The position numbers and the translations under genes were made by a program. Shown piece after piece: positions 2,438-52,429 of a DNA stretch of 64,000 bases. This stretch comes from Spirochaeta cellobiosiphila DSM 17781 (lineage in GTDB: Bacteria; Spirochaetota; Spirochaetia; DSM-17781). Every line of letters starts with the position of its first letter. Positions within the stretch are counted from its first letter, which is position 1. The notes beneath the pieces were generated by a model. That model made no database searches. It was not told where the DNA came from and saw nothing but the letters and a program-made list of their open reading frames with translations. Location: NCBI RefSeq assembly GCF_000426705.1, contig NZ_KE384554.1:354825-418824 (forward strand). The letters are read 5' to 3'.

Positions 2438-2444
2438 TATTAGT

Positions 2445-29325: not shown

Positions 29326-29348
29326 ACCCCCTGTCCAACGATGGGGGT
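29326..29348 (+). terminator. Weak hairpin after zwf-opcA
   Basis: ACCCCC (29326-29331) pairs with GGGGGT (29343-29348), loop of eleven bases, then TATTGT. Stem is GC-rich but the T-tail is poor. Confidence 0.4.
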
Positions 29349-29394: not shown

Positions 29395-31287
29395 ATGAAA
29401 GTTATTTTTGGTCTATACTCCTCAGTCATGAGTAGGAAATGGAACGATCGTGATTTGGAATTACTTGCTCCTGCCGGAACATTTGAAATCTTCAAATCTG
29501 TAATTACTTCAAAATGTGATGCTGTCTATCTAGGTGGCCAACACTTGAACATGCGTATGATTAGGAAAGGATATAACCTTACTAATCAGGAATTAAAAGA
29601 TGCTATTAACATAGCTAATGATCATAACAAAAAAATTTATATTACATTAAATAGTCTTATAGACCCTGAAGAAGTAAATGAGGCACTTGATTACCTCGAT
29701 TATCTAGACACGATTAAGCCTCATGGTTTAATCATTCAAGATTTAGGGCTTCTTCAACTTATACAGGAAAGACAAATAACAATACCTCTACACAGTTCAG
29801 TTATGATGAATGTTCATAACTTAACCATGGTAGATTTCTTATCCAGAAGGGGAATATCTAAAGTCGTTTTATCAAGAGAAATGACTCTTGATGAAGTCAG
29901 ATATATTCATTGTAATAGTGATGTTGAACTAGAATACTTTACCCATGGAGACATGTGTGTTGCCCATGGAGCCCAGTGTTTGTATAGCTCTTTTGTTTTT
30001 GGAATGTCTTCTAATCGGGGACGATGTTTGAAACCGTGTCGATGGCCATATCAAATAAAAGGAGTGACAGAGGCCCCTCCTTATCCTTTGGCTGTTAAAG
30101 ATATGAATATGTATCAACATTTGGGAGATATGATACTGGCAGGGGTAACGTCCTTCAAAATAGAAGGAAGGATGAGGGAAAAAGATTTTATTGTAAGTTT
30201 AGTCAATAAATATGGAGACGCATTAGATCAATTCCTTGAGGATCCTTTATATAGAAGAGTAGATAATCTTGACGAGTTCAAGAAAAGAGACTTTTCTACG
30301 GGATACGCCTATGGAAAACCAGGAATATCAAATATTAATACCCTAGGTGAAGGATCTGGAAAGTTTTACTCAACAGGTAAAATGTTTAGTACACCTACAG
30401 CTGAAAAAGAAATAGATTTAAACGTGGATAATTTTGCTGCATATTCAATTTTTAATATTAAGCGACAGGACTACCATTTAAATGTTAAGGTTAATTCCAT
30501 TGACCAAGCTGTAGTTGCATCAAAAGCGGGAGCTGATCGAGTTATATTAACCCTCGAACCTTTAGCACCCGCACAATTACCTTCTATCAATGACATAGAA
30601 AACTTAGCCAACAGGATAGGAGATAAAACAGATTTATACCTAGCCCTGCCTCGAATGACTAAAGATAAAGATGATCTTCTTTTTAAAAACTATTTTGCTA
30701 AAAATATTTCTGTAAAAGGTATTTACATTAATCATGTAGGATGTTTGGAATATTTAGATAACCAACAATATGATCTAGCAGGTGATACTGGTCTTAATAC
30801 CTATAACCACTTATCTCTTAAATACTTGAAAAGTTGTGGTGTTAGCCTTGCCAATCTATCTATAGAAATGCCCTTTTCTAGCTTTCATACTTTAGCAAAA
30901 ATAAATATCTATAACCCGGATTATGCAACACCTGAGATTATGATACATGGTAGACCCACTATGATGTATATGGAACATGATATAAGTTCAACGGAAGCAG
31001 ATGACATAGAACTAGTCACAGAAGCAGAATCATTACATGTAAAGAAGGATATTTGGAACCGCTATCATATGTTATCTGCCAAAGATTATACCCTACTCCC
31101 CAGAATATCGGAATTGCTACAATCAGGATACAGAGAGTTTCGTTTAGAATTACAAGATTATGATATCAGTGAAACATCTCAACTGTTATACCAGATACAG
31201 GACCTAATTCAAAATCAAAAGAATATGAAACAGATATTGATGTCTATTTCACAAAAGAGAGGACTTACCTATGGCGCTCAGCGATAG
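29395..31287 (+). CDS. U32-family protein with two tandem barrel domains
   Basis: 630 residues. The first barrel (about 15-290) opens ELLAPAGTFEIF and carries the cluster cysteines C188, C195, C211 and C215 (GDMCVAHGAQC, RCLKPC). The second half (about 360-600) is another U32-like barrel: NVKVNSIDQAVVASKAGADR, TGLNTYNHLSLKYLKS and MIHGRPTMMYMEHD, but without the Cys normally near that end. Families: UbiU/UbiV (oxygen-independent hydroxylation), RlhA/TrhP (RNA hydroxylation). In an operon with UbiD, UbiA and UbiX homologues, a quinone-related role is possible; an RNA role is not excluded. The ATG at 29395 has no ribosome site; the ATG at 29428 would also keep the domain. Confidence 0.75.
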   Translation: MKVIFGLYSSVMSRKWNDRDLELLAPAGTFEIFKSVITSKCDAVYLGGQHLNMRMIRKGYNLTNQELKDAINIANDHNKKIYITLNSLIDPEEVNEALDYLDYLDTIKPHGLIIQDLGLLQLIQERQITIPLHSSVMMNVHNLTMVDFLSRRGISKVVLSREMTLDEVRYIHCNSDVELEYFTHGDMCVAHGAQCLYSSFVFGMSSNRGRCLKPCRWPYQIKGVTEAPPYPLAVKDMNMYQHLGDMILAGVTSFKIEGRMREKDFIVSLVNKYGDALDQFLEDPLYRRVDNLDEFKKRDFSTGYAYGKPGISNINTLGEGSGKFYSTGKMFSTPTAEKEIDLNVDNFAAYSIFNIKRQDYHLNVKVNSIDQAVVASKAGADRVILTLEPLAPAQLPSINDIENLANRIGDKTDLYLALPRMTKDKDDLLFKNYFAKNISVKGIYINHVGCLEYLDNQQYDLAGDTGLNTYNHLSLKYLKSCGVSLANLSIEMPFSSFHTLAKINIYNPDYATPEIMIHGRPTMMYMEHDISSTEADDIELVTEAESLHVKKDIWNRYHMLSAKDYTLLPRISELLQSGYREFRLELQDYDISETSQLLYQIQDLIQNQKNMKQILMSISQKRGLTYGAQR

Positions 31288-32512
31288 ATCAAATACTTAC
31301 CTGGGACCAGAAGGAATACTGGGCAAAAAAAATGAGTATCTATTACCCTGTTCCTTTCATTTTTATAAGAACCCTCCCCAACTAGTAAAAGGTAAAGGGA
31401 CAAGACTATGGGATCATAATGATAAGGAGTATATTGACTTTTTTGGTGGTGTTTCTGTTATGTCCTGCGGACATTGTAATGATGATATTAATGAAGAGGT
31501 TATAAACCAAATCCAACAGTTACAACATACAACATCCATATATTTAACAGAACCAGTTGTTAATCTGGCAGAAGAATTAAGCCATGTTCTTCCTGGGAGC
31601 ATCAAACGAAGTTTTTTCTGTAATTCTGGGTCAGAAGCCAATGATGGGGCCATGACTTTGGCTCGTATGTATACAGGAAAAGAAGCTTTTGTCGCACTTA
31701 AAGGTAGTTTACATGGAAGAACCTATCTCACTTCAGGAATCACAGAAATACCAATGTGGCGAACAGATCCTTTTTTGAATCATTTACCAATGTATTTTGT
31801 TGAGAATAGGAAGGAATTAGAAGAAGTACTAGAAGAACATTCTCAATCTATTGCTGGATTCATTTTTGAGCCTATACAAGGTAATGGGGGAATTAAAACA
31901 CTAGAGCATTCTTTTATTTCTGAATTAATTCCCTTACTACACAAGCATAAAGTTCTTGCCATTGCTGATGAAATCCAAACTGGTTTTGGAAGAACAGGTT
32001 ATATGTTTGCATCAGAACATTATGGAATAATTCCAGATATAATCACTGGAGCCAAAGCATTGGGTAACGGATTTCCTATTGGTTTTTTTGCAACAACAGA
32101 TGGGATAGGTCATTGTTTTACAAAACCATCTGCTTCAACATTAGGGGGAAACCCCGTATCAGCGACTGCTGGATTAGCCGTTTTAAAATACATCAAAAAA
32201 GAGAACTTAACCAATAAGGCTAAAGAATTAGGTCAATATTTAAAAGCTCGATTAACAACACTGGCATCAGAATATCAATGGATTAAAGAAGTAAGAGGTT
32301 TTGGCTTAATGTTAGGAGTAGAAATTCAACATGAACAAGCCCCGGAAGTGACTGATTTAATCCTGGAATCAATGAAAGACAAAGGATTTCTTATTGGTAA
32401 AAATGGTTTAAACAGAAATGTTTTAGCCTTTCAACCACCTTTAGTTATAACAAAGAAAGAAATAGATATGATGCTTACCTCACTTAATGAAACATTCAAG
32501 GAGATCCTATGA
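31271..32512 (+). CDS. Class III aminotransferase (AGXT2/4-aminobutyrate-like)
   Basis: 413 residues, PLP-dependent. The lysine motif is GAKALGNGFPIG, with DEIQTGFGRTGYMFASEHYG and CNSGSEANDGAM upstream. It is not ArgD, which has its own copy at 42632. Its amino donor or acceptor is not known. Overlaps the U32 gene by 17 bases and the following binding-protein gene by four (ATGA), so it is locked into this operon. Confidence 0.9.
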   Translation: MALSDRSNTYLGPEGILGKKNEYLLPCSFHFYKNPPQLVKGKGTRLWDHNDKEYIDFFGGVSVMSCGHCNDDINEEVINQIQQLQHTTSIYLTEPVVNLAEELSHVLPGSIKRSFFCNSGSEANDGAMTLARMYTGKEAFVALKGSLHGRTYLTSGITEIPMWRTDPFLNHLPMYFVENRKELEEVLEEHSQSIAGFIFEPIQGNGGIKTLEHSFISELIPLLHKHKVLAIADEIQTGFGRTGYMFASEHYGIIPDIITGAKALGNGFPIGFFATTDGIGHCFTKPSASTLGGNPVSATAGLAVLKYIKKENLTNKAKELGQYLKARLTTLASEYQWIKEVRGFGLMLGVEIQHEQAPEVTDLILESMKDKGFLIGKNGLNRNVLAFQPPLVITKKEIDMMLTSLNETFKEIL

Positions 32513-33372
32513 AAAGATACCTAACATTAATCCTGATTACTATTTGTATTATTCCAGTACTCTTCGGTTCTGGTCAAAAACAGGAAAAGGACAAAGATAC
32601 ATATAAAGTTAGAATAGGTGTAATGCCAGATGCAGGGAATTTACCATTATTACTCATGGACCATGTTGAAATAGTACCTTTTATGAGTGCCAAAGAAAGG
32701 GATGTAGCTCTTATGGCTGGACAAATAGACGGAATATCTGGTGATTTAGTAGGTCTATTACAGTTTTGGAAAAATGGAAACAACCTAAAAGTACTAACCA
32801 CCACCACAAGTCGATTTATGATTGTTGCAGCAAAAGGATATAGCTCAAGTATTACGACCCCTGATATTGGTATCTCTGAGAACACTGTCATAGAATTTAT
32901 GGTGGATGCCTTATGGCCTGATGGGAGTTTTAATAAACTAGGAATACCTCAAGTCCCTGTCAGAATGGAAATGCTCAAAAATAACAAACTTCCCTTAGCC
33001 TGTTTAACAGAAGGGATGGCATGGCCATTGCTTGAAGAAGGATACACCATAATTAAAGATCAACAAAATACGGACTTAACACCGGCAGTACTAGCCTTAA
33101 GCCCAGCATATTTATCAAAGAATGAAAAAGTCGTATCAATATTAAAGGACGAATGGAATAATGCAGTTAATGAGATTAACACGAATCCAGATCAATATCG
33201 TCACACTTTAATTGAGCAAGTACGTTTGCCAGCGTCTTCCAATTATCCTATGCCTCAATACAAAACAATTACTCTACCTAATAAGAAAACCTTTGATCTC
33301 GTTAAATCCTGGATGATTGACAAATATGGTAATGATATAGACGTTACTTACAATGAAGTGGTAATAAAATAA
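32509..33372 (+). CDS. Periplasmic substrate-binding protein of an ABC importer (NMT1/SsuA-like)
   Basis: 287 residues with a signal peptide (MKRYLTLILITICIIPVLFG, no lipobox Cys). The mature part is a type II binding fold: VRIGVMPDAGNLPLLL, then MAGQIDGISGDLVGLL and TTTTSRFMIVAA. Works with the ATPase at 36283 and permease at 37019. Ribosome site AAGGAG. The ligand is unknown; small aromatic or thiamine-like molecules are common in this group, and the neighbours suggest a quinone precursor. Confidence 0.8.
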   Translation: MKRYLTLILITICIIPVLFGSGQKQEKDKDTYKVRIGVMPDAGNLPLLLMDHVEIVPFMSAKERDVALMAGQIDGISGDLVGLLQFWKNGNNLKVLTTTTSRFMIVAAKGYSSSITTPDIGISENTVIEFMVDALWPDGSFNKLGIPQVPVRMEMLKNNKLPLACLTEGMAWPLLEEGYTIIKDQQNTDLTPAVLALSPAYLSKNEKVVSILKDEWNNAVNEINTNPDQYRHTLIEQVRLPASSNYPMPQYKTITLPNKKTFDLVKSWMIDKYGNDIDVTYNEVVIK

Positions 33373-33374
33373 TT

Positions 33375-34823
33375 ATGGCCTACAAAAACCTACAATCTTT
33401 TATTGATGAATTGGATAAAAGAGGTGAACTCAAAAGAATCAAAAAAGAAGTGAGTCCTCACCTTGAAATAACAGAAATTGTTGACAGGGTCAGTAAAAAG
33501 TATGGCCCCGCCCTACTCTTTGAGAACGTAAAAGGATCTGACTATCCTGTTTTGATCAATGCCTTTGGTACTTATGAAAGAATGGCTTTAGCTCTTGGTA
33601 GTGAGTCCATTGATACAAAAGCGAAGGAATTGGAAGATTTGATCGATTGGGGATTCTCTCAAATGGTCAAATTAGATATTGGAAGTTTCTTTCCAAAAGC
33701 AAAATGGGCTCGTTTATTCTTTCCCAGTAAGGTGTTAAAAGCTCCTTGTCAGCAAATCATCAATCACAATCCTGATTTGAACCAACTACCTGTTCTTACT
33801 TGTTGGCCAGGAGATGGAGGCCCGTTCTTTACTCTTCCCCTCGTTATTACAAAAGATCCGGAGACAGGATCTCAAAATATGGGAATGTATCGTATGCAAG
33901 TGTATGATAGTACAACAACTGGCATGCATTGGCATCTTCATAAGGATGGAGCCCACTATTATCAAAAATACAAGAAGAAAGGGGACGTAATGCCTGTATC
34001 TGTTGTATTAGGAGACGATCCAGCTGTTACCTATTCAGCGACAGCTCCCCTTCCTGAGGGTATTTCAGAACTTTTTTTTGCAGGATATCTGAGGGGTAAA
34101 CCAGTAGAAACAGTTAAATGCATTACCAATGACCTTTTAGTTCCTGCGAATGCGGAATTCGTACTGGAAGGCTATGTAGATCCAAACGAACCATTAAAGA
34201 CTGAAGGGCCCTTTGGTGATCATACTGGATATTATTCCTTACAAGATCAATATCCAGTTTTTCATGTTACTTGTATTACTCATAGAAAAAACCCTGTATT
34301 TCCCGCCACTGTAGTAGGACAACCTCCAATGGAAGATTGTTATATGGCCAAAGCTACAGAAAGACTTTTTCTTCCATTACTGAAGAAGATGTTACCAGAA
34401 ATAGTCGATATGAACCTACCATTAGAAGGTGTTTTTCATAACTGTGCTATCCTGTCCATTCGCAAAAGGTATGCTGGACATGTGCATAAAGTGTTATACG
34501 CCCTCTGGGGTCTAGGTCAAATGATGTACACCAAAATGATTATCATTGTAGACCATGATGTTGATGTTCAAGATCTTAGCAAAGTTATGTGGAAAGTATT
34601 TAACAATATAGACGGATCTAGAGATCTTATTTTATCAGAAGGACCATTGGATGCCCTTGATCATGCTTCTCCTAGATCCAGATTTGGAACAAGGATAGGA
34701 ATTGATGCCACGAAGAAAGGCCCTTTAGATAATCACCACAGACCTTGGCCTGATGACATTGTTATGTCGGAAGAGGTAAAAAACAAAATTGATTCAATTT
34801 GGAAGGAATTAGAACTTGATTAG
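33375..34823 (+). CDS. UbiD-family decarboxylase (MqnL-like)
   Basis: 482 residues. Prenylated-FMN-dependent decarboxylase of aromatic acids. Seen: GMYRMQVYD and GMHWHLHKDGA, EGPFGDHTGYY, and the C-terminal RYAGHVHKVLYALWG. Pairs with the UbiX-like flavin prenyltransferase two genes downstream and the UbiA-like prenyltransferase. In futalosine menaquinone synthesis this role is MqnL; in ubiquinone synthesis it is UbiD. Confidence 0.93.
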   Translation: MAYKNLQSFIDELDKRGELKRIKKEVSPHLEITEIVDRVSKKYGPALLFENVKGSDYPVLINAFGTYERMALALGSESIDTKAKELEDLIDWGFSQMVKLDIGSFFPKAKWARLFFPSKVLKAPCQQIINHNPDLNQLPVLTCWPGDGGPFFTLPLVITKDPETGSQNMGMYRMQVYDSTTTGMHWHLHKDGAHYYQKYKKKGDVMPVSVVLGDDPAVTYSATAPLPEGISELFFAGYLRGKPVETVKCITNDLLVPANAEFVLEGYVDPNEPLKTEGPFGDHTGYYSLQDQYPVFHVTCITHRKNPVFPATVVGQPPMEDCYMAKATERLFLPLLKKMLPEIVDMNLPLEGVFHNCAILSIRKRYAGHVHKVLYALWGLGQMMYTKMIIIVDHDVDVQDLSKVMWKVFNNIDGSRDLILSEGPLDALDHASPRSRFGTRIGIDATKKGPLDNHHRPWPDDIVMSEEVKNKIDSIWKELELD

Positions 34824-35697
34824 ACAATCTCTAAGAGGAATGAAAAACATAGGCTCTGCTGTCATGATAGAACATACTCTTTTTTCTCTCCCTCTAGCCA
34901 TTTCAGCTTTTTTATTAGAAACAGCAGGTCATCCACCAATAGCTAAAGTTATTTGGATATTGCTCGCTGTCTTTGGGGCACGCAATGCCGCCAATGCTCT
35001 CAATCGTCTCATCGACAGACATATTGATGAAGAAAATCCCCGTACAGCCACAAGGGATCTCCCAACTGGAAAAGTAAAACCTTACCAATTATGGATATTC
35101 ACAATCCTATGCCTAATGATTTTCTTATTGGCAGCCTATAAATTAAATCCCCTATGCCTAATTCTAGTGCCAGTAGCGTTTATCTTAATATTTGGATATT
35201 CTTACACGAAACGTTTCACTTTTCTTTGTCATTATTGGTTGGGAGTTACTACTTCTGTAGCTGTCATGGGTAGTTTTTTGGCTATATCAGGATCTTTTGC
35301 CTGGGAATACTTCCCTCTTACCATAGGTGCTGCCCTATGGGTTGCGGGGTTTGATATTATTTATGCTACTCAGGATATTGAACATGACAGGACAGTAGGA
35401 CTTCATTCTATTCCCTCACGATTTGGAAAAAATGGAGCTTTGTACATTGCCGGCCTGTCTCATATGGTGACAATTCTTGCCTTTATTCTTAACGGATATC
35501 TATATCAATTACATGAACTATATTATATAGGAGTAACAATCTCCGGAATAATTCTAGTAATGGAACATGTTATAGCATGGAAAGGCAATGTTAAATGGAT
35601 ACCTCTAGCTAGCTATCACCTAAATCAATTGCTTTCCCCCTTATTTATGATTTTCACTATTCTTGATATTTATCTATTGGGAAATCTGAATGGTTGA
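34816..35697 (+). CDS. UbiA-family prenyltransferase (MqnP-like)
   Basis: 293 residues, about eight membrane segments. The two Asp-rich motifs are visible: NALNRLIDRHID and YATQDIEHDR. IEHTLFSLPLAISAFLLE is the typical MqnP/UbiA start. It would attach a polyprenyl tail to an aromatic acid at the membrane. The TTG at 34816 overlaps the ubiD stop with GGAAGG upstream; an ATG at 34840 is an alternative. Confidence 0.92.
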   Translation: MIRQSLRGMKNIGSAVMIEHTLFSLPLAISAFLLETAGHPPIAKVIWILLAVFGARNAANALNRLIDRHIDEENPRTATRDLPTGKVKPYQLWIFTILCLMIFLLAAYKLNPLCLILVPVAFILIFGYSYTKRFTFLCHYWLGVTTSVAVMGSFLAISGSFAWEYFPLTIGAALWVAGFDIIYATQDIEHDRTVGLHSIPSRFGKNGALYIAGLSHMVTILAFILNGYLYQLHELYYIGVTISGIILVMEHVIAWKGNVKWIPLASYHLNQLLSPLFMIFTILDIYLLGNLNG

Positions 35698-36289
35698 GAG
35701 CAAACCCTTTATTATAGCTATAACGGGAGCATCAGGGTCCCTCTATGGGATTAGAATGATCCAGGAATTGATCAAACATAATCGAACTGTATACACACTA
35801 ATCACAGACTCAGCTAAACAAGTTATTCCCTTTGAAACGGGAAAATCCTGGGAGCAATGGTACAGTGAATTCAATCAGAATAATGAATATGTCCAGGATA
35901 TCCCGCTGAACAATATCTATCACAAGATTGCAAGCGGGTCCTATTCCACAGAGGCAATGATTATTTCTCCCTGTAGTATGGGAACATTAGGTCGTATTGC
36001 CTCAGGAATATCTTCCAATCTATTAGAAAGAGCTGCAGATGTTACCCTTAAAGAGAAAAGATCTCTTATTCTTATGGCAAGAGAAACACCTTTGAATCGA
36101 ATTCATATACAAAATATGTTAACTATCAATGAAGCAGGAGGGATTATATTCCCACCAACTCCGGCGTTTTATGCAAAACCACAAACCATTGAGGAGCTAG
36201 TCCAGGCCACGGTTTGCAGAGTCTTACAACTTGCCGGACTAGAAATAAATAACCCCTATAGCTGGCAACCCGATGAGAGAGAATGGTAG
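35690..36289 (+). CDS. UbiX-family flavin prenyltransferase (MqnM-like)
   Basis: 199 residues, normal length. The FMN motif IAITGASGSLYGIRMI and the segment ISPCSMGTLGRIASGIS are visible, with EKRSLILMARETPLNRIHIQNM for the phosphate. It makes prenylated FMN, cofactor of the UbiD-family protein upstream. Overlaps the UbiA gene by eight bases. Confidence 0.94.
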   Translation: MVESKPFIIAITGASGSLYGIRMIQELIKHNRTVYTLITDSAKQVIPFETGKSWEQWYSEFNQNNEYVQDIPLNNIYHKIASGSYSTEAMIISPCSMGTLGRIASGISSNLLERAADVTLKEKRSLILMARETPLNRIHIQNMLTINEAGGIIFPPTPAFYAKPQTIEELVQATVCRVLQLAGLEINNPYSWQPDEREW

Positions 36290-37026
36290 AACTACAAGAC
36301 TTATCCCTCACCTATAACAAAGGAAAAACAAAAATATTCCACGCTCTGAATTACCAATTTAAGGCCAACAAGATTCATATCCTCATTGGACGATCAGGAT
36401 GTGGAAAATCAAGTTTGCTCTATTTATTGGCAGGTTTAAAACGGCCACAAGAGGGACAGATAAAAATAGAAGGTCAAGAGGCTCAGGCAGGTCGAAAAGA
36501 TATAAGTATCATATTACAAGAATTTGGATTATTTCCTTGGAAGACAGCCTATGATAACCTGCTCTTGGGACTAAAACTAAGAGGAATTAAAAAAGAAGTA
36601 TGCCAGGACAAGATCAATAAAATATTGAAGCTTTTAAATCTATCAGGCAGGGAAAATTCCTATCCTCACCAATTGTCTGGAGGTGAACAACAACGCCTAG
36701 CTATAGGAAGAGCTGTTATTTTAGACCCTACACTCTTACTTTTAGACGAACCGTTTTCGTCTTTAGACGCTATGATCAGAGAATCTATGCAAGACTTACT
36801 CCTCATTCTACAAAACCAAATGAATAGACCCACTATCATCATGGTAACACATAGCATTGAAGAGGCTGTATTTTTAGCTGACTATATTCATATTATGGAT
36901 AACGAGGGTCAGCTTCACTCCCTACCTAATCATCCAGAAGGAAAGGACTACAGACTAAAAGAGCAATACTTCAATCAATGTGTCAGAATCAGAGAAGAGC
37001 TGGAAAGGAGAAGTATGAATGTTTAG
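36283..37026 (+). CDS. ABC importer ATPase (SsuB/TauB/ThiZ type)
   Basis: 247 residues. Walker A GRSGCGKSS, signature LSGGEQQRLAIGRA, Walker B LLLDEPFSSLD, and the H-loop THSIEEA. Energises import with the permease next door and the binding protein at 32509. Placement inside the ubiD-A-X genes is the odd point: the transporter genes are split, with the binding protein before and ATPase and permease after. Confidence 0.95.
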   Translation: MVELQDLSLTYNKGKTKIFHALNYQFKANKIHILIGRSGCGKSSLLYLLAGLKRPQEGQIKIEGQEAQAGRKDISIILQEFGLFPWKTAYDNLLLGLKLRGIKKEVCQDKINKILKLLNLSGRENSYPHQLSGGEQQRLAIGRAVILDPTLLLLDEPFSSLDAMIRESMQDLLLILQNQMNRPTIIMVTHSIEEAVFLADYIHIMDNEGQLHSLPNHPEGKDYRLKEQYFNQCVRIREELERRSMNV

Positions 37027-37765
37027 GAAATTAGCCTCTCTCTTTATCTTACTCCTACTCTGGTTCGGTGTTAGTTATAACCTTAGTTTAAATTTCTTCC
37101 CCTCTCCTATAGACGTTCTGCATATACTGGTAAATCCCAAAATATTTTATACCATAGTCACAAATGTTTTTATCTCTTTAGGAAGGGTTGTAACCGCCTT
37201 GATATGTGCTTTCACACCAGCCATGGTATTGTCCATATTAACAAGTCGAAGCACTAAATTAAGCCAATTATTCAATCCAATAATATATATGTTATTTCCT
37301 GTACCGAAGATTGCCTTACTACCGATTATTCTGTTATTTCTTGGATTGGGGAACTTATCAAAAATATTTTTAGTCGCACTTATTGTGTTTTTTCAATTCT
37401 ACATAACCATATCAGATGGTATTCGCCATATTGACAAAAAGTATTTTGAGTCCTTTTCTAGTTTAGGAGGTTCCACAGTACAAAGTATAATTCATATCAT
37501 CCTACCAGCTTCTCTCCCAAGGGTTTTCTCAACACTTCGCCTAACAATGGGAACAAGTATAGCTGTATTATTTATGACAGAAACCTATGCCTCCAGAAGT
37601 GGCATAGGCTGGTATATAATGGATGCCTGGTCCCGCTTTTCTTATATAGAAATGTATGCAGGAATAGTATTTTTAGGTTTAACAGGGTTCCTACTTGTAG
37701 AACTTATTAACGTAGGGGAATACTTTTGTTGTCCATGGTTACGCAACAATAATTCCTCCGCCTAA
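37019..37765 (+). CDS. ABC importer permease (SsuC/TauC type)
   Basis: 248 residues, six membrane segments. The coupling loop FESFSSLGGSTVQSIIHIILPASLPRV carries the EAA-type motif that meets the ATPase. Last gene of the eight-gene operon, with ribosome site GGAAAGGAG. Its end overlaps the end of convergent mnmA by 27 bases. Confidence 0.93.
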   Translation: MFRKLASLFILLLLWFGVSYNLSLNFFPSPIDVLHILVNPKIFYTIVTNVFISLGRVVTALICAFTPAMVLSILTSRSTKLSQLFNPIIYMLFPVPKIALLPIILLFLGLGNLSKIFLVALIVFFQFYITISDGIRHIDKKYFESFSSLGGSTVQSIIHIILPASLPRVFSTLRLTMGTSIAVLFMTETYASRSGIGWYIMDAWSRFSYIEMYAGIVFLGLTGFLLVELINVGEYFCCPWLRNNNSSA

Positions 37766-40341: not shown

Positions 40342-40812
40342 GTGAAGGGACGATCAGCACGGTTAAGAATTATTAAAAAAATTATTGAGAACCACCGAAT
40401 ACCAAGCCAGGAAGATCTACTCGGTTTTCTTAAAAAAGAAGGTGTTCAAGTTACTCAAGCCACTCTTAGCCGCGATTTGAAACTACTAAAAGTGGGCAAA
40501 GTATCTGATGGAAAAAGCGGATATTACTATACATTGCCTGGCGAAGACAACATTCGAGAAACGGAAAAGGATTATATAAAGGATTTCCAAAGAGGATTTA
40601 TAGGAATTGAGTTCAGCACAAATATAGCTGTAATTCGTACCTATCCAGGGCACGCTAATTCAGTAGCCCTTGCATTGGACAACTTTAATCTTGATGAAAA
40701 AATAGGAACCATCGCCGGTGATGATACGATTATGATCATAATACGAGAAGGGTTCACTCAAGATGATTTTCTGGACAGTCTCAAAAGTAAAATACCCGAA
40801 TTGGAGCTATAA
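40342..40812 (+). CDS. argR: Arginine repressor ArgR
   Basis: 156 residues, normal length. N-terminal winged helix (PSQEDLLGFLKKEGVQVTQATLSRDL) and the C-terminal arginine-binding and oligomerisation domain (PGHANSVALALD, GTIAGDDTIMII). GTG start with AAGGA upstream. First gene of argR-C-B-D-G, so repressor and targets are transcribed together under the ARG box. Confidence 0.95.
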   Translation: MKGRSARLRIIKKIIENHRIPSQEDLLGFLKKEGVQVTQATLSRDLKLLKVGKVSDGKSGYYYTLPGEDNIRETEKDYIKDFQRGFIGIEFSTNIAVIRTYPGHANSVALALDNFNLDEKIGTIAGDDTIMIIIREGFTQDDFLDSLKSKIPELEL

Positions 40813-40815
40813 ATA

Positions 40816-41847
40816 ATGAAAGCAGCTGTTTTAGGAGCCACAGGATATACTGGACAATTATTATTAAAATTACTCAACAATCACGAAAAAATTGATCAGA
40901 TAATGCCAGTGACAACAAGTCAAGTAGGACAATCTATAAGTAAGAGTCTACCAAGATTAGGTAACTCATTAAACAGGAAAACTCAGTTGACAAAGGGATG
41001 CTTCATTAGTAGAGAAGAGGCCCTTAAGGAATCACCTGATGTAGTATTTGCGGCACTTCCCCATCTAAAAAGTGCTCCATTTGCGGAACCTTTTTTAGAT
41101 AAAAGTGTACTTATAGATTTATCAGCTGATTATCGTTTAAAAGATCCTGAAGTCTTTGCCATCGCCTATGGTCAAAGACCTCCTGTTGAAACTAGACTAA
41201 AAGACTCAGTTTATGGTTTGTGTGAATGGAATAGGCAAGATATAAAAAAAAGCAATATTATTGCTGTACCCGGTTGTTATCCTACAGCAACCCTACTCCC
41301 CCTCCTTCCTTTTGCTAACAAAGGCTTAATCAAGGGAAGTATAATTGTTAATGCCTTATCTGGCATAAGTGGAGCCGGTAAAAAACTGGCAGAAAACTAT
41401 CTATATGTTGAAAGAGACGAAAACTGTGGTCCCTATGCGCCTGGAAAGGTGCACCGTCATAGCTATGAAATCGAACATTATATTCATGGAGAAGGCTCCT
41501 CAGAAGAAGTCTATTTTACTCCCAATTTGGTACCAATGGTTAAAGGAATGACTGTAACATCTACATTTTATGCACCAGACCTAAGTGAGACAGGAGCAAT
41601 GGATCTTTTACAGGAATTTTACTCAGATCAGCCATGCATTGGTCTTAGAGAAGACTTACCTCAATCAGCGGATGTTGCAGGATCTAATAGATGTGATATT
41701 GCCATAAGAAAATCGGGAAATCAAATTTTCCTATTCAGTGCCATTGATAATCTTATGAAAGGTGCTAGTGGTAGTGCTATCCAGAACTTCAATATTCGAT
41801 TCGGCTGGGATGATTCTTTAGGCCTTCCTTTATCAGCTGAGGTATAA
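40816..41847 (+). CDS. argC: N-acetyl-gamma-glutamyl-phosphate reductase
   Basis: 343 residues. Third step of arginine synthesis. NADP fold GATGYTGQLLLKLL, and the catalytic Cys in AVPGCYPTA. Ribosome site GGAG upstream. Three bases separate it from argR and two from argB. Confidence 0.97.
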   Translation: MKAAVLGATGYTGQLLLKLLNNHEKIDQIMPVTTSQVGQSISKSLPRLGNSLNRKTQLTKGCFISREEALKESPDVVFAALPHLKSAPFAEPFLDKSVLIDLSADYRLKDPEVFAIAYGQRPPVETRLKDSVYGLCEWNRQDIKKSNIIAVPGCYPTATLLPLLPFANKGLIKGSIIVNALSGISGAGKKLAENYLYVERDENCGPYAPGKVHRHSYEIEHYIHGEGSSEEVYFTPNLVPMVKGMTVTSTFYAPDLSETGAMDLLQEFYSDQPCIGLREDLPQSADVAGSNRCDIAIRKSGNQIFLFSAIDNLMKGASGSAIQNFNIRFGWDDSLGLPLSAEV

Positions 41848-41849
41848 AG

Positions 41850-42620
41850 ATGACAGAAACTATAGTTATCAAAATGGGCGGCCAAGCTGTATCTAACCAA
41901 AACCAGTTAGAGCAATGTTTAAAAGAAATCTCCCTGATATCAGGAACCTACAAAATAATTCTCGTTCATGGCGGAGGTCATGAAATTAGTTCCTTTTCCA
42001 AAAAACTCGGAATTGAACCCTATTTTAAAGAGGGGATACGAATGACAAGTAAAGAGGAAATGACCCTTGTAGATATGGTGTTAGGAGGTAGTTTTAACAA
42101 ACTATTAGTGAGAAAGGCTCAACTAAATCATCTTAAAGCTGTGGGAATTTCCGGGAGCGACGGGCCTATCTTTCAAGGACATGCTTTAGGCTCCGGCAAT
42201 TATACAGGAAGAATTGATCACGTAGATATCTCTCTCATCAAACATCTACTATCAGGGGGATATTTCCCTATATTGGCACCACCTTCTATTGATGAAGAGG
42301 GAAACCCTCTCAATATAAACGCTGATGAAGCCGCTTTAGCTTTAGCTACAGCTATTAAAGCTTCTCACCTGCTCTTTATTTCTGATATTCCGGGAATATT
42401 AAATGATGGTGTTTTGATTCCTTCCATGACTCCCATGGCTATAAATACCGCCATTAAAGACAAAATCATCATAGGGGGAATGATCCCCAAGGTTCAATCA
42501 GCCATTAAGGGCTTGGAAGAGGGAATAGGCCAGGTAGTCATTGGCCAATATACACATGAGAATAGTCTACTCAACCTCATTGAAGGCTCTGAGGGGACTC
42601 AAATACATCTTGAGCATTAG
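41850..42620 (+). CDS. argB: N-acetylglutamate kinase
   Basis: 256 residues. Second step of arginine synthesis. The amino acid kinase pattern VIKMGGQAV, the substrate loop VHGGGHEISSF and INADEAALALA are visible. Located between argC and argD. Confidence 0.95.
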   Translation: MTETIVIKMGGQAVSNQNQLEQCLKEISLISGTYKIILVHGGGHEISSFSKKLGIEPYFKEGIRMTSKEEMTLVDMVLGGSFNKLLVRKAQLNHLKAVGISGSDGPIFQGHALGSGNYTGRIDHVDISLIKHLLSGGYFPILAPPSIDEEGNPLNINADEAALALATAIKASHLLFISDIPGILNDGVLIPSMTPMAINTAIKDKIIIGGMIPKVQSAIKGLEEGIGQVVIGQYTHENSLLNLIEGSEGTQIHLEH

Positions 42621-42631
42621 GAGGTTACAGG

Positions 42632-43849
42632 ATGCAAAAATCATACATAACGTCAAAAACTTCCTTACCTAAAAGCTTTGGAGATTCATTCCTGGAATTA
42701 GAAAAAGGCAAGGGAGTGTTTCTCTGGGACAAGGGAGGTAAAAAGTACCTCGACTTTGGTTCGGGGATTGCAGTGAATTCCTTAGGGTATTCCAATAAAG
42801 GGATATTAAGTGCGATCCGGCGGCAATCAAAGAAAATAATTCATACATCCAATCTCTATACCTCAGAACCGACCACTCGTTTAGCCAAAGAACTAACATC
42901 ACTGGGTGAATTTGATGCCGTACATTTGGGCAATAGTGGAACAGAAGCAAACGAAGCCGCTATAAAGTTTGCCCGACTTTATTCCTTAAGCAAGAAAGGA
43001 AAAGGTCACACTAAACTACTTAGCTTTGAAGGGGCTTTTCATGGGAGAACCTTAGGGGCCCTAACCCTAACACCTACTCCTAAGTACAAAGATCCCTTTG
43101 GACCATTATTACCTGATTGTTATACTATAGCCCCCAACGATATAGAGTTACTTAAAAATACTTTGGATGATAGCTTTGCTGGGATCATTATTGAACCATT
43201 ACAAGGAGAAGGAGGATTAAATAGTTTTGATCCTGCCTTCATACAGGTCCTTAATGAGCTATGCAAATCTTTGGATATAATCTTAATCGCTGATGAGGTT
43301 CAAACAGGACTAGGAAGAACGGGTTCCATGTTTGCCTCTGAATTAGTAGGTTTAAAGCCAGATATTATTACCTTAGCCAAGCCTTTAGGGGGTGGCTTAC
43401 CCTTATCAGCGACCTTAATACCTCAAAAAATCAATGACTTGCTAAAGCCTGGTCATCATGGTTCTACCTTTGGTGGAGGTCCCTTGACTTCCGCAGTAGC
43501 ACTAGAGGTTATGAAAGTCGTTAATGACAAAACATTCCTGAAAGGGGTAACAGATAAAGGAGATTATCTAGTCCAACAATTAGACCTTCTCAAACAAGAC
43601 TATTCTTGTCTGGGACAAACTAAAGGAATGGGCCTACTAAGAGGAATAGAACTAGATGAGACTAAAGCTGGATTTACCATTGCCGAATTAATTGGTGAAG
43701 CCAGAAATCAGGGATTGTTAATCTTAAGATGCGGATCTAATGTCATCAGGCTAGCACCCCCTTTAGTCATTACAGTAAAAGAAATTGATCAAGCATTAGC
43801 CTTATTAAGAACATCCTTAAACAACCTAACAAACGGAGGATTAACATAG
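42632..43849 (+). CDS. argD: Acetylornithine aminotransferase
   Basis: 405 residues, PLP class III. Lysine motif LAKPLGGGLPLSATL, DEVQTGLGRTGSMFAS and GNSGTEANEAAIKFAR are visible. Ribosome site AGGAGG. Last base of its stop is the first base of the argG GTG. Confidence 0.96.
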   Translation: MQKSYITSKTSLPKSFGDSFLELEKGKGVFLWDKGGKKYLDFGSGIAVNSLGYSNKGILSAIRRQSKKIIHTSNLYTSEPTTRLAKELTSLGEFDAVHLGNSGTEANEAAIKFARLYSLSKKGKGHTKLLSFEGAFHGRTLGALTLTPTPKYKDPFGPLLPDCYTIAPNDIELLKNTLDDSFAGIIIEPLQGEGGLNSFDPAFIQVLNELCKSLDIILIADEVQTGLGRTGSMFASELVGLKPDIITLAKPLGGGLPLSATLIPQKINDLLKPGHHGSTFGGGPLTSAVALEVMKVVNDKTFLKGVTDKGDYLVQQLDLLKQDYSCLGQTKGMGLLRGIELDETKAGFTIAELIGEARNQGLLILRCGSNVIRLAPPLVITVKEIDQALALLRTSLNNLTNGGLT

Positions 43850-45120
43850 TGGACAACAAAATAAAGAAAATCGCACTAGCTTATTCGGGAGGATTAGATA
43901 CTTCCATCATTATCCCATGGTTAAAAGAACAACACCCAGGAGCAGAGGTTATTGCCATCTGTACCAACGTTGGCCAAGGTGAAGATTGGGATGCAGTCGA
44001 AAAGAAAGCCATCGCTTCCGGTGCTTCTAAAATATATATAGAAGATATTCAGGAAGATTTCGCCAAGGACTTTCTCTTTCCCATGATTCGAAGCGGAGCC
44101 TTATACCAAGGAAAGTATTTCTTAGGAACTTCCATTGCACGACCACTTCAGGCCAAAAGACAAGTAGAAATTGCCCTTGCAGAAGGAGCGGATGCTTTAT
44201 GTCATGGTTGTACTGGTAAAGGAAATGACCAAGTCAGATTTGAGCTTACTTACAAAGCCCTGGCCCCCCAATTAAAAGTAATAGCACCATGGCGTGTTTG
44301 GAATATTACGTCCAGAGAGCAAGCCATTGACTATGCCAAGGCCAACAATATTCCTATCGGAGATATTAGCAAGAAGAATATCTACTCTAGAGATTGGAAC
44401 ATTTGGCACATCAGTCATGAAGGGGGAGACCTTGAAAACCCTTGGAATAGACCAACAGACCCCATGTTCAAGTTATCTGTTTCCCCTAAAGAAGCTCCTG
44501 ATAAAGAAACAGAAATCACTATTGATTTTGAAAAAGGATTTCCTGTAGGAATTGACGGACAAAAAATGACTCCGATTGAAGTCCTTCTTAAGCTTAACAA
44601 ACTTGGTGGAGAAAACGGAATTGGTCGTGATGACATCGTAGAAGATCGAATTGTAGGAATGAAAAGCCGTGGTGTTTATGAAACTCCAGCCGGCACTATC
44701 CTCTATAAAGCCATAAAAGAATTAGAAATGCTTACTATGGACTTCGATACCCTAAGCTACAAGAACTCTTTGAGTCAGAAATATGCCGACCTTGTCTATG
44801 CTGGTAAATGGTATACACCGTTAAGAGAATCCATTGATGCTTTCATGCAACAAGCTACAAAGTACACAACAGGTTCTGTTAGGGTGGTACTCTATAAAGG
44901 AAACGTTATTATAGCAGGAAGAAAGTCTAAGTACAGCCTGTACTTGGAAGATCTAGCATCCTTCGGGGAAAGCTCATATGACCATAAAGATGCTGATGGC
45001 TTTATCAATCTGTTTGGTTTATCAACAGGTGTTGCGGCAATGGTCCGCAAAGGGGTGGAAGCCGGAGAAGGTCAATCTGCCGAAATTTTAGGAACAGCTG
45101 CTTCCTATCACGCCGAATAA
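43849..45120 (+). CDS. argG: Argininosuccinate synthase
   Basis: 423 residues. Joins citrulline and aspartate using ATP. PP-loop LAYSGGLDTSIIIPWL, KGNDQVRFE and GRKSKYSLYLEDLASF are present. GTG start overlapping the argD stop (TAGTG). No argJ, argA, argE, argF or argH is in this operon or elsewhere in the window. Confidence 0.97.
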   Translation: MDNKIKKIALAYSGGLDTSIIIPWLKEQHPGAEVIAICTNVGQGEDWDAVEKKAIASGASKIYIEDIQEDFAKDFLFPMIRSGALYQGKYFLGTSIARPLQAKRQVEIALAEGADALCHGCTGKGNDQVRFELTYKALAPQLKVIAPWRVWNITSREQAIDYAKANNIPIGDISKKNIYSRDWNIWHISHEGGDLENPWNRPTDPMFKLSVSPKEAPDKETEITIDFEKGFPVGIDGQKMTPIEVLLKLNKLGGENGIGRDDIVEDRIVGMKSRGVYETPAGTILYKAIKELEMLTMDFDTLSYKNSLSQKYADLVYAGKWYTPLRESIDAFMQQATKYTTGSVRVVLYKGNVIIAGRKSKYSLYLEDLASFGESSYDHKDADGFINLFGLSTGVAAMVRKGVEAGEGQSAEILGTAASYHAE

Positions 45121-49068: not shown

Positions 49069-49819
49069 ACCATGTATAGATCTTCATAATGGGCAGGTTA
49101 AACAAATCGTCGGCTCAACATTATCCTCTTCCCATGTGGAAGAAAATCATGTTAGTGCCTATTCCAGTGAATACTTCGCCGAACGATACCGTAATGATCA
49201 TCTTGATGGTGGACATATCATCATGCTTGGTCCCGGGAACGAAACTGCTGCTTTAACAGCTCTTAGAGCATTCCCTCAGGGGATGCAAATAGGAGGGGGA
49301 TTAACCCCTGATAACTGCACTCCCTACCTTGAGGCTGGAGCTTCTCATATCATCGTCACTAGTTATATCTTTACCGATGGCATAATACATTGGGATCGTC
49401 TCAAAGCCTTTGCCAAAAAAATATCAGCCAGACGCTTAGTTCTCGATCTAAGTTGCAAACAGGTAGGCGAAGAATTTTATGTGGCTACAAACCAATGGCA
49501 AAAGATAAGTCAGGTAAAACTGGATAGAGAATTAATAAAGCTCTTAAGTCCCTATTGCGATGAGTTCCTCATTCATGCGGCTGATGTAGAAGGTAAAAGA
49601 CAGGGTATACAAGAAAAAGTTGTCCGGCTTCTAGCCGAAGATCCCATCAAGCCCATTACCTATGCAGGCGGTATACGAGATGAAAATGATATTAACAACT
49701 TCTACCAATTGAGTCATGGTTCTCTAGATTTAACAGTAGGTAGTGCCTTAGATATTTTTGGTGGAACTCTTCCTTATTCCACTATCGTTAATCTATCCCA
49801 ATCTCATAATTTTGAATGA
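49058..49819 (+). CDS. HisA of the eukaryotic (HIS6) type
   Basis: 253 residues. Isomerase of histidine biosynthesis (ProFAR to PRFAR). It opens RPCIDLHNGQVKQIVGS, has LGPGNETAALTALRAFPQGMQ and ends with the HIS6-type GGIRDENDI and SALDIFGG. This form is longer and clearly different from the usual bacterial HisA, and it occurs in plants, fungi and some bacteria. ATG at 49058 is chosen for ribosome spacing; GTG 49049 and ATG 49052 are in frame. No other his gene is in the window. Confidence 0.85.
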   Translation: MKIRPCIDLHNGQVKQIVGSTLSSSHVEENHVSAYSSEYFAERYRNDHLDGGHIIMLGPGNETAALTALRAFPQGMQIGGGLTPDNCTPYLEAGASHIIVTSYIFTDGIIHWDRLKAFAKKISARRLVLDLSCKQVGEEFYVATNQWQKISQVKLDRELIKLLSPYCDEFLIHAADVEGKRQGIQEKVVRLLAEDPIKPITYAGGIRDENDINNFYQLSHGSLDLTVGSALDIFGGTLPYSTIVNLSQSHNFE

Positions 49820-51653
49820 TATCAACAGCCTCTTTTATAGAGGTCTTCGTTGTATCAATGGTGATTTGAGGATGCGCAGGAGCCTCAAAGCTGGATTTAA
49901 TACCAGTAAAATCCTTTATTTTTCCATCAATAGCTTTCTTATATAAACCCTTAGGATCTCTTTGTATACAGATCTCCAGGGGCGTATCCACAAATATCTC
50001 ACAAAACCTTCTAGGTCCAATAATCGCTCGAGCCTTGATTCTATCTTCTTCAAAGGGTGATATAAAAGAAGCTATAACAGTAATACCGGCATCATTAAAT
50101 AACCTGGCCACTTCAGCTATTCGCCTAATATTCTCATGCCGATCATCTATAGAAAATCCCAAATCCTTATTTAGCCCATGCCTAACATTATCACCATCCA
50201 GTACATATACTGGTTTCTGCTTTTGATAGAATTCTTTTTCCAAGGCAAAAGCAATGGTCGATTTACCAGACCCCGACAATCCTGTCAGCCAATAAGTTAA
50301 AGGTTGGTTATTCAGTAATAGACAACGTTCAGAGTGGCCAATAACGCCTGTATGTTTATAGATATTTTTACCATAAGTTAGAGAACGATTAATGATCATT
50401 CCTGCACCAATGGTAATGTTTGTATCAGGATCAATTAAAATGAGCCCCCCTGTAGATCTATTGCGACTATATTCATCAAAAGGAATCGGATTAAATAATT
50501 CCAGACATACCCTACCGATTTCATTTAATTGTAAGAACTCTACATCTTCCCTATGGAGGTTATCAGGATTAACACGATAATTAAGGCAGGTAATGAGCGC
50601 CTTCTCATAATGAGAACTATGTTTGATAAGATAGGTTTTATTTTTATCTGAAGGTTCATCTCCCATCCACACAAGTATCACTTCCAGTTTGTTGTCAACA
50701 TGAGGCAAATTATGACTATGAACAATCATGTCTCCTCTTGAAATATCTATCTCGTCCTCCAATGTTATGGTCACAGACATTCCCATAAAGGCCTCCGTTA
50801 ATTCACCATCCATGGTGACGATGCTTTTCACATGACTGGACTGTCCAGAGGGAAGTACTTTGATTCCATCTCCTTTTTTTACAGTTCCTGAGGCAATCCT
50901 ACCGGCAAAACCTCTAAAATTCAGATGTGGTCTATTAACCATTTGTACAGGAAAACGGAAATCAACTAGATTTCGTCCGGCACCTGTATAAACATTTTCT
51001 AAGAATGACATCAAGGATGGTCCTTCATACCATGGCATATGTACAGAAGAATGAACGATATTATCTCCCTTTAAAGCAGACAAAGGTATAAAGGTGATAT
51101 CATCGATTTCCAGTTTGCTGGCAAAATCTAAATACTCCTCCCTTATTTGATTGTAGCGATACTCACTATAATCAACTAAATCCATCTTATTGACAGCGAT
51201 AACGATATGGGGGATTCCTAATAATGAGGAAACAAAACTATGACGTTTGGATTGGGTCACCAATCCTTTACAGGCATCTATTAGTATAATAGCAAGATCA
51301 GCAGTTGATGCACCTGTTACCATGTTACGGGTATATTCTTCATGACCAGGGGTATCAGCAATAATAAATCGCCTCTTGGGTGTAGAAAAATACCGATAGG
51401 CAACATCGATAGTAATCCCCTGCTCTCTCTCAGCTTTGAGGCCATCAGTCAATAGGGCATAATCAACATAATCCCTTCCCCATTTAGAAGAATCTTCATT
51501 TACAGCTTGAAGATGATCGTCAAAAATATTCTTGGAATCATAAAGCAATCGACCTATCAAGGTAGACTTACCGTCATCAACAGAACCTGCTGTTGTTAAT
51601 CTTAAGATATCCGATTTAATGCTTTGTTCAATGATATAATGCACATCTCTCAT
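49788..51653 (-). CDS. cysNC: Bifunctional sulfate adenylyltransferase subunit 1 / adenylylsulfate kinase
   Basis: 621 residues, a fusion. The GTPase part is CysN (about 1-430: GSVDDGKSTLIGRLLYDSK, DTPGHEEYTRNM, NKMD). The kinase part is CysC (about 445-621: LTGLSGSGKSTIAFALE and DGDNVRHGLNKDLGFS). With CysD it makes APS from sulfate, then PAPS. The ATG overlaps the cysQ stop (ATGA). Its last 32 bases overlap the convergent hisA. Confidence 0.96.
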   Translation of the reverse strand: MRDVHYIIEQSIKSDILRLTTAGSVDDGKSTLIGRLLYDSKNIFDDHLQAVNEDSSKWGRDYVDYALLTDGLKAEREQGITIDVAYRYFSTPKRRFIIADTPGHEEYTRNMVTGASTADLAIILIDACKGLVTQSKRHSFVSSLLGIPHIVIAVNKMDLVDYSEYRYNQIREEYLDFASKLEIDDITFIPLSALKGDNIVHSSVHMPWYEGPSLMSFLENVYTGAGRNLVDFRFPVQMVNRPHLNFRGFAGRIASGTVKKGDGIKVLPSGQSSHVKSIVTMDGELTEAFMGMSVTITLEDEIDISRGDMIVHSHNLPHVDNKLEVILVWMGDEPSDKNKTYLIKHSSHYEKALITCLNYRVNPDNLHREDVEFLQLNEIGRVCLELFNPIPFDEYSRNRSTGGLILIDPDTNITIGAGMIINRSLTYGKNIYKHTGVIGHSERCLLLNNQPLTYWLTGLSGSGKSTIAFALEKEFYQKQKPVYVLDGDNVRHGLNKDLGFSIDDRHENIRRIAEVARLFNDAGITVIASFISPFEEDRIKARAIIGPRRFCEIFVDTPLEICIQRDPKGLYKKAIDGKIKDFTGIKSSFEAPAHPQITIDTTKTSIKEAVDIIQNYEIGID

Positions 51654-52429
51654 GCCCTACCCCTTCGACAAAGGAATCCATCTTCATTTTTTAAAGATTC
51701 TTTATTATAATCTAAGGGGGTTTGACTTATGCCATTATAGACAATCCCCTTAGCTCCCATAACAACCGAATGAGCTGCTGCTGTATCCCATTCCCAAGTT
51801 GGTCCAGAACGATAATAAATATCAGCACGACCTTCAGCCACAAGGCAAAACTTCAAACTGGATCCCATGCTGACAGCCTTGGTGACACCACAGGATTTGA
51901 AGAATTCATCCTCCAGGGAACTACTATGGGATTTAGACTTTACTGCAATAATATCTTCTCTATTCAAATATTCTTTAATAGGTAATTTTTGTGTTACAGA
52001 GCCTTTTATAACAATAGATTCATCTTCTATACCCCCATAATATAACCACTGTCGAGCAGGAGCATAAACAACACCCCAATAGGGTTTATTCTGATAGACA
52101 AAGGCAATATTGACAGTAAAATCCTGATCTCCCTTGATGAATTCCTTTGTTCCATCTAAGGGATCAACAAGCCAGAAACTATCCCAGTCTTTCCTTTGTT
52201 CATAAGTCAATACGTTTTTATCCTCTTCAGAGATAATGGGATACTGTTTATTGAGTTGCTTTATTCCACTCACAATGTATTGATGACTTGCTTTATCAGC
52301 TAGAGTTACAGGGCTATCATCTTTTTTATATTGAACCTCATTATTCTCTGAATGATAATATTGCATGATAAGCCGACCAGCTTCTTGAGCTATATTAATA
52401 ATAACTTGTTTATCCTTGTCACTTAACAT
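51650..52429 (-). CDS. cysQ: 3'(2'),5'-bisphosphate nucleotidase CysQ
   Basis: 259 residues, inositol phosphatase fold. Seen: ISEEDKN, DPLDGTKEFIKGD and WEWDTAAAHSVV, the metal-site motifs. It removes PAP, the by-product of PAPS use. Lies between cysD and cysNC in one operon, so PAPS production and PAP removal are linked. Confidence 0.94.
   Translation of the reverse strand: MLSDKDKQVIINIAQEAGRLIMQYYHSENNEVQYKKDDSPVTLADKASHQYIVSGIKQLNKQYPIISEEDKNVLTYEQRKDWDSFWLVDPLDGTKEFIKGDQDFTVNIAFVYQNKPYWGVVYAPARQWLYYGGIEDESIVIKGSVTQKLPIKEYLNREDIIAVKSKSHSSSLEDEFFKSCGVTKAVSMGSSLKFCLVAEGRADIYYRSGPTWEWDTAAAHSVVMGAKGIVYNGISQTPLDYNKESLKNEDGFLCRRGRA

Follow-up and report, generated by a model that had tools for sequence, protein, structure and literature searches.

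Our analysis concerns an eight-gene operon at positions 29395-37765 (forward strand) of the window, a stretch of 64,000 nucleotides from the anaerobic spirochaete Spirochaeta cellobiosiphila DSM 17781 (contig NZ_KE384554.1, positions 354,825 to 418,824). The operon joins UbiD-, UbiA- and UbiX-family enzymes with an ATP-binding cassette (ABC) importer, a long U32 protein and an aminotransferase. We think it rather probable that it encodes a salvage route, by which an imported naphthoate-like acid is turned into a demethylmenaquinone-like membrane quinone for electron export, with the U32 protein and the aminotransferase as an optional addition.

Other organisms would release a soluble aromatic acid, which the binding protein, ATPase and permease would bring into the cell; a dihydroxynaphthoate, for example 1,4-dihydroxy-6-naphthoate, is the most likely candidate. 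UbiA would attach a polyprenyl tail to the imported acid, and UbiD would remove the carboxyl group with the prenylated flavin mononucleotide (prenyl-FMN) cofactor that UbiX makes. The product would be demethylmenaquinone-like because MenG was not found; the U32 protein and the aminotransferase may modify the ring in a further, optional step. Electrons would pass from an Ndh2-type NADH dehydrogenase to the quinone and from there to flavinylated extracellular proteins, whose genes lie at other sites of the genome. A preliminary description of this DNA had proposed that an aromatic precursor is imported and converted to a prenylated quinone. The absence of pathway markers and the presence of an importer beside UbiD where MqnC is absent speak for this proposal, while the compound and the product are deduced; as for the import of an aromatic precursor, the enzyme families and the gene association support it in part. 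We add to that description the link to electron transfer, the recognition that the U32 protein and the aminotransferase form a separable pair, and the wide spread of the system across Bacillota.

The eight open reading frames all lie on one strand at the coordinates given in that description. Its count of "seven of eight" tight junctions needs correction, as eight genes have seven junctions; the tight packing itself stands, since all seven overlap or leave 2 nucleotides (in order, -17, -4, +2, -8, -8, -7 and -8). Pfam and NCBIfam agree with its gene families for seven of the eight genes, and the eighth is a binding protein by its predicted fold. Our script called the longest open reading frames, so overlapping genes can be missed.

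Quinone enzymes and pathway markers

The UbiD-family decarboxylase (33375-34823) is of the futalosine-menaquinone (MqnL/SCO4490) type, as judged from a tree and from the curated futalosine-type menaquinone decarboxylase model TIGR03701, which it passed with 640.6 bits against a cut-off of 495.9. The UbiA-family prenyltransferase (34816-35697) is MqnP-like: it passed the subfamily model TIGR01475 and matched MqnP models only below their cut-offs (MqnP_DT, 284 bits, cut-off 430), while the proteobacterial UbiA model gave 128 bits. UbiD retains GMYRMQ and EGPFGDH, and UbiA retains NxxxDxxxD and DxxxD, all of which we take to be active-site motifs. The UbiX-family flavin prenyltransferase (35690-36289) scored over the cut-offs of TIGR00421 and NF004685. 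Trees were built from 79 UbiA and 81 UbiD sequences of sufficient length and coverage, E. coli included; in the UbiA tree, whose bootstrap had not settled, the window's UbiA falls outside the clade of mqn-linked sequences.

The markers of the known quinone routes were sought throughout the genome (3.95 Mb, 29 contigs, 96% complete). PF02621 (MqnA/MqnD) had no match at E ≤ 0.001, and at E ≤ 1e-20 there was none for MqnC (no search was aimed at MqnB or MqnE as such) or for the MenG/UbiE methyltransferase, of which a more diverged form is possible. MenD had two distant matches of 59.7 and 55.2 bits against a cut-off of 244.2; other men genes were not searched as such. The preliminary description held that a complete mqn or men pathway elsewhere would speak against its proposal; since MqnA/D, MqnC and MenD were not found at these thresholds, no such pathway is in evidence.

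This pattern extends to relatives. A scan of named genomes returned 170 relatives, and the best 80 of these 170 loci were studied. A sample of 49 genomes was drawn, consisting of the window's genome, 11 other spirochaetes with a close UbiD, six spirochaetes that gave no UbiD match, and 31 of those 80 loci, which were picked partly by visible gene order and include two futalosine controls. Among the 43 UbiD-bearing genomes, 38 lack MqnC, PF02621 above 200 bits and MenD over its cut-off; MqnC was found in three (each with a second, weaker match to the model) and MenD over its cut-off in two others. PF02621 exceeded the Pfam cut-off in 14 of the 49 genomes and 200 bits in only three. We read the matches in the other 11 (26-49 bits, frames of 329-363 amino acids) as putative binding proteins of the same fold.

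Clostridium folliculivorans (G124) and C. zeae (G125) have MenG over its cut-off and lack MenD, MqnC and strong PF02621 matches. Oceanirhabdus seepicola (L134, G136) carries the importer/U32/aminotransferase cassette plus a MenD/MenG cluster, itself adjacent to a HepT-like and a further Ndh2-like gene; its cells may have two sources of quinone.

Import proposed in place of synthesis, and a probable link to electron transfer

The exported substrate-binding protein (32509-33372; export was judged by eye from the N-terminus) matched no family in Pfam or NCBIfam, and its only two matches among PDB sequences (E 0.93 and 1) gave no clue to a ligand. Its predicted structure (mean predicted local distance difference test score, pLDDT, 91.8) has the SsuA/TauA/CmpA type of fold expected of an SsuABC/TauABC-type importer, its structural neighbours including 3un6 (Z 25.6), SsuA (23.2) and TauA (22.3). 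Further structural matches were CmpA, NrtA, PqqT and Thi5, plus the enzymes MqnD and MqnA. The alignment of this protein covered 39 of 58 homologues found, plus the window's own. The ATPase (36283-37026) was assigned by Pfam and NCBIfam and carries Walker A and LSGGE motifs, and the permease (37019-37765) is of the SaoP/TauC/SsuC/NtrB kind, with all of those models below cut-off; neither protein passed the curated SsuABC/TauABC-type models.

UbiD matches occur in 17 of the 118 Spirochaetia searched, 12 of them close (at least 63% identity), the window's genome included. The comparison of gene order across spirochaetes suggested in the preliminary description found the same eight-gene order in two other genomes of one genus (L106, L108), and locus L033 has seven of the eight genes in this order, lacking a UbiX gene at the place between UbiA and the ATPase. 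Across Spirochaetia and Bacillota, UbiD and UbiA recur in company with ABC genes or a binding protein of the SsuA/TauA type, and many clostridia and some enterococci have much of the gene set, often including the U32/aminotransferase pair; the best 80 of the 170 loci span Spirochaetales, Sphaerochaeta, Clostridium, Thermoanaerobacterium, Enterococcus, Amphibacillus and others. By the rule of our script, 56 of these 80 loci have importer genes, three have mqn genes and none has both. In the 43-genome comparison, which is a selected sample with the window's own row set by hand, a binding protein or an ATPase plus permease accompanied UbiD in 40 of 40 mqnC-negative genomes (two of them with MenD) and in none of the three mqnC-positive genomes (p = 8e-5). 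When all three importer parts were required, the counts were 30 of 40 and 0 of 3 (p = 0.023). Some importer-less UbiD loci (for example L047, L051, L057, L076, L101 and L102) were left out of the 49-genome sample. Of these, L047 and L051 fall inside the mqn-linked clade of the UbiA tree and L076 adjoins it, and ten neighbours of importer-less loci showed nothing quinone-related except one weak polyprenyl synthase match.

In Brevibacillus laterosporus, MqnC, MenG and two strong PF02621 proteins are present, and the UbiA of its MenG-UbiA-UbiX-MqnA cluster joins the mqn-linked clade. Elsewhere in this genome, genes for a U32 protein, an aminotransferase, UbiD and a second UbiA lie near MqnC, Ndh2-like, Gx, NusG_II and ApbE genes; this site has no importer. 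This second UbiA groups with those of clostridial electron-transfer cassettes (support 93/93, in a tree whose bootstrap had not settled). Futalosine genes without an importer at this site are as expected if the importer replaces synthesis. The case of B. laterosporus suggests that the importer can be replaced by synthesis, and from it we infer that the U32 protein and the aminotransferase may come in at a later stage, acting on a quinone that is set aside for electron transfer.

On contig C1 of the S. cellobiosiphila genome (268-275 kb), genes for a polyprenyl synthase (HepT), an Ndh2-like protein, a PplA-like FMN lipoprotein, ApbE, a PF07456 (EetB-like) protein and NusG_II lie together. We take this to be the gene set of flavin-based extracellular electron transfer, the Ndh2 and EetB identities being assigned from similarity and general knowledge; the PplA model gave 134 bits against a cut-off of 325. 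Ndh2-like matches (E ≤ 1e-40) were found in 49 of the 118 Spirochaetia, with 11 of 12 cassette genomes positive against 38 of 106 others (p = 2.5e-4); thus, in this sample, the cassette hardly occurs outside genomes that have an Ndh2-like protein, and the converse does not hold. The sole cassette genome without a match is 64% complete. Among the best 80 of the 170 loci, 24 have an Ndh2-like gene and two or more of five electron-transfer markers are present in 28. The cassette of Clostridium drakei (importer, U32, aminotransferase, UbiD and UbiA genes) comes after genes labelled Ndh2, NusG_II, Gx, HepT and ApbE; the electron-transfer and mqn labels of loci derive from BLAST against a few marker genes from three loci (L062, L066, L084). 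PF07456 was dropped as a marker, since its presence in 46 of the 49 genomes makes it uninformative. We conclude that flavin-based extracellular electron transfer is the probable use of the operon product.

The U32/aminotransferase pair and alternative explanations

The long tandem U32 protein (29395-31287, 630 amino acids) has two PF01136 stretches; its start may lie at 29428, 33 nucleotides downstream of 29395, where most aligned homologues begin. Its cysteines C188, C195, C211 and C215 form CX6CX15CX3C and are invariant in 20 aligned sequences (the window's plus 19 of 23 homologues listed). It has a U32 domain with four conserved cysteines, as in the UbiU/UbiV/TrhP/RlhA kind, and the motif CX6CX15CX3/4C is described as recurrent in U32 families in sections of Pelosi et al. 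2019 (PMC6747719). The protein scored below the TrhP, UbiU and UbiV equivalog cut-offs (168.9, 136.5 and 70.5 bits against 534, 440 and 275) and had no match among PDB sequences. Its structural model is of lower confidence (pLDDT 80.3), and Foldseek returned double-barrel proteins at low template modelling (TM) scores of 0.21-0.27 by query length, as well as the U32 structure 5d88, which suggests that the protein may have two barrels. The U32 protein is a probable iron-sulfur protein of the oxygen-independent hydroxylase kind. We rejected a role as the housekeeping tRNA hydroxylase, as two other U32 matches, which may serve that role, lie elsewhere in the genome.

The class III aminotransferase (31271-32512; assigned by Pfam and NCBIfam), which uses pyridoxal phosphate (PLP), belongs to a distinct subfamily. 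It carries AKALGNG, whose lysine presumably binds PLP, and its alignment covered 13 of 20 homologues found, plus the window's own. It is not the ArgD of this genome: it missed the argD model cut-off (338.2 bits against 410.05), and a separate ArgD homologue (42632-43849, forward strand), of 36-38% identity to it, stands inside an arginine gene cluster outside the operon.

In the 49 genomes, the long U32 protein (above 300 bits) and the close aminotransferase (at least 53% identity across the part that matched) are found in an identical set of 25, with the aminotransferase split or partial in two of these. The two are thus a separable, strictly co-occurring pair in this sample. In 225 genomes of the order of C. 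drakei, the aminotransferase (E ≤ 1e-100) was found in 27, UbiD (E ≤ 1e-150) in 36 and both in 22 (p = 1e-16); 14 genomes have UbiD without an aminotransferase match at this threshold, one of which (G135) has a partial gene. Split genes were seen in UbiA of Thermoanaerobacterium saccharolyticum (L077, two adjacent pieces) and in the aminotransferase of L037 and L063 (two pieces); these reflect either sequencing errors or gene decay.

Several observations weigh against the salvage route. The fold of the binding protein serves sulfonates, bicarbonate, nitrate, pyrimidines, thiamine and pyrroloquinoline quinone (PQQ), and also MqnD and MqnA. Because the superfamily is so broad, the ligand cannot be read from the fold, and the structure-based ligand prediction proposed in the preliminary description led to a recognized fold and to no named ligand. 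The mutual exclusion of importer and mqn genes is based on just three mqn-positive genomes, and 21 of the best 80 of the 170 loci have neither, some of them being short contigs and some keeping a binding protein, with most checked at the locus only. The UbiA sequences of two importer-bearing loci (L092, L093) adjoin the mqn-linked clade, so that the UbiA type alone cannot cleanly separate import from synthesis. Genome G127 has the ATPase and permease with no binding-protein match, and three genomes (G130, G132, G133; loci L045, L052, L055) have a binding protein without adjacent ATPase and permease. An Ndh2-like protein without the UbiD cassette occurs in 38 of the 118 Spirochaetia. In the order of C. 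drakei, five of the 27 aminotransferase-positive genomes lack UbiD at E ≤ 1e-150: in L116 (G242) and L117 (G246) it is missing or a 96-amino-acid fragment beside an intact UbiA; L119 (G318) has UbiA and importer without UbiD or UbiX nearby; L120, close to a contig end, has the U32 protein, aminotransferase and importer only; and L118 is an aminotransferase on a 3.6 kb contig. Importer genes lie near the aminotransferase in the first four of these.

Some of these loci have features of their own. The cassettes of L116, L117 and L119 keep the U32 protein and aminotransferase together with UbiA and the importer. L045, L052 and L055 come from Enterococcus asini, Natronobacillus and Amphibacillus, where the binding protein beside UbiD and UbiA may work with a different transporter or serve a different purpose.

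We weighed one further reading and three rival explanations. It is unlikely, in our estimate, that the pair defines the product, with the U32 protein hydroxylating a prenylated naphthoquinone without oxygen and the aminotransferase swapping the oxygen for an amino group; the resulting low-potential aminated demethylmenaquinone would be a counterpart of rhodoquinone for extracellular electron transfer, whether the naphthoate is imported or made in the cell. The exact co-occurrence of the pair in the 49 genomes and the absence of known-route markers would also fit a complete de novo route, in which chorismate or prephenate is converted to the aromatic acid with the help of the pair, and the cargo of the transporter is something auxiliary. 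According to sections of PMC11574389, anaerobic ubiquinone synthesis draws its oxygen from prephenate, which also has a link to RNA modifications made by U32 proteins. However, 16 of the 43 UbiD-bearing genomes (one of them 64% complete) lack the long U32/aminotransferase pair, MqnC and MenD over its cut-off, and B. laterosporus retains the pair despite its futalosine genes; we therefore hold the de novo route to be decidedly unlikely.

We consider it quite improbable that the transporter imports no quinone precursor and instead brings riboflavin, or a pyrimidine or thiamine precursor, with FMN going to UbiX and ApbE. Riboflavin binders exist in the superfamily of the binding protein, and pyrimidine and thiamine binders are among its structural neighbours, but the transporter genes sit with UbiD, UbiA and UbiX, away from the flavinylation genes on contig C1, and no such transporter lies beside UbiD in the three MqnC genomes. 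The least likely explanation, which we hold to be very improbable, is that the three enzymes make a benzoquinone or another prenylated aromatic compound from imported or internal 4-hydroxybenzoate, with no naphthoquinone involved. The same three families act on 4-hydroxybenzoate in ubiquinone synthesis, as is well established; however, the UbiD and UbiA model scores favor the futalosine type, and E. coli UbiA and UbiD lie far outside the set in our trees, a set itself collected by similarity to the window's UbiD. We favor the salvage route over the three rivals.

Genomic setting and known systems

Upstream, 74 nucleotides separate the operon from opcA and contain a terminator-like hairpin (29328-29347, forward strand) with an 8-pair stem, five G-C pairs and five T in the first eight tail bases. 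This hairpin is weak alone, because such sites were no commoner in the 9 kb scanned (5 observed) than in shuffled sequence (5.9 expected). The operon was rejected as an extension of zwf-opcA, as its relatives have different upstream neighbours. Downstream, the 3' end of the permease gene overlaps the convergent mnmA by 27 nucleotides.

Elsewhere in the window, a T-box leader (2182-2441, reverse strand; Rfam RF00230, 106.6 bits) precedes a class II aminoacyl-tRNA synthetase with a threonyl/alanyl-type domain (372-2126). The arginine cluster (40342-45120, forward strand) encodes an ArgR-like protein (named by eye), a semialdehyde dehydrogenase (ArgC), an amino acid kinase (ArgB), the ArgD homologue and argininosuccinate synthase. 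Genes at 49788-53335 (reverse strand) for an EF-Tu-like/adenylylsulfate (APS) kinase fusion, an inositol monophosphatase family protein and a phosphoadenylylsulfate (PAPS) reductase probably serve sulfate assimilation.

If the salvage route is correct, the operon supplies a candidate importer for soluble quinone precursors, accounts for a membrane quinone in clostridia and spirochaetes that lack the Men and futalosine routes, and connects extracellular electron transfer with interspecies quinone sharing; the presence of the U32/aminotransferase pair may point to a kind of quinone that has so far gone unseen. The preliminary description could name no such linked system, and we likewise found no description of one in the open-access literature searched. 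A prediction that soluble quinone precursors are imported already exists: the transport genes "remain to be annotated", according to sections of Ravcheev and Thiele 2016 (PMC4746308). The main text of a survey from 2026, which covers known quinone pathways across 26,264 genomes, does not contain MqnP, MqnL or U32 (PMC13386864).

The operon resembles the late steps of the futalosine pathway (MqnP/MqnL/MqnM) in its three enzyme families and in a UbiD that passes the MqnL-type model. It differs in that its genome has no MqnA/D or MqnC at the thresholds used, that an importer, a U32 protein and an aminotransferase are added and that its UbiA lies outside the mqn-linked clade. The futalosine late steps are a proposed prenylation and decarboxylation of 1,4-dihydroxy-6-naphthoate, in an unsettled order (sections of PMC4746308). 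With UbiU/UbiV and TrhP/RlhA, the U32 protein of the operon shares the U32 domain and the recurrent cysteine motif, but it represents a long subfamily of its own, in which a second U32-like part is present, and, in the 49 genomes, occurs only with the aminotransferase.

Like the Listeria-type electron transfer system (Ndh2, EetA/B, DmkA/B, FmnB, PplA), the genome of S. cellobiosiphila encodes an Ndh2-like protein, a polyprenyl synthase, ApbE, an FMN lipoprotein, PF07456 and NusG_II. To our knowledge, the importer, U32 protein and aminotransferase are not part of the Listeria-type system. The operon prenyltransferase is a UbiA that stands with UbiD and UbiX, in contrast to the DmkA of the Listeria-type system, which acts on 1,4-dihydroxy-2-naphthoic acid (DHNA), as sections of PMC10746273 and general knowledge have it. 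Electron export by Lactiplantibacillus plantarum needs exogenous quinone precursors, whose uptake and modification pathways are "yet to be identified" according to sections of the same source; these sections give DHNA as the compound used and name no importer, UbiD, U32 protein or aminotransferase for this bacterium. The route that we propose for S. cellobiosiphila would share with the quinone auxotrophy of L. plantarum a precursor taken from outside the cell.

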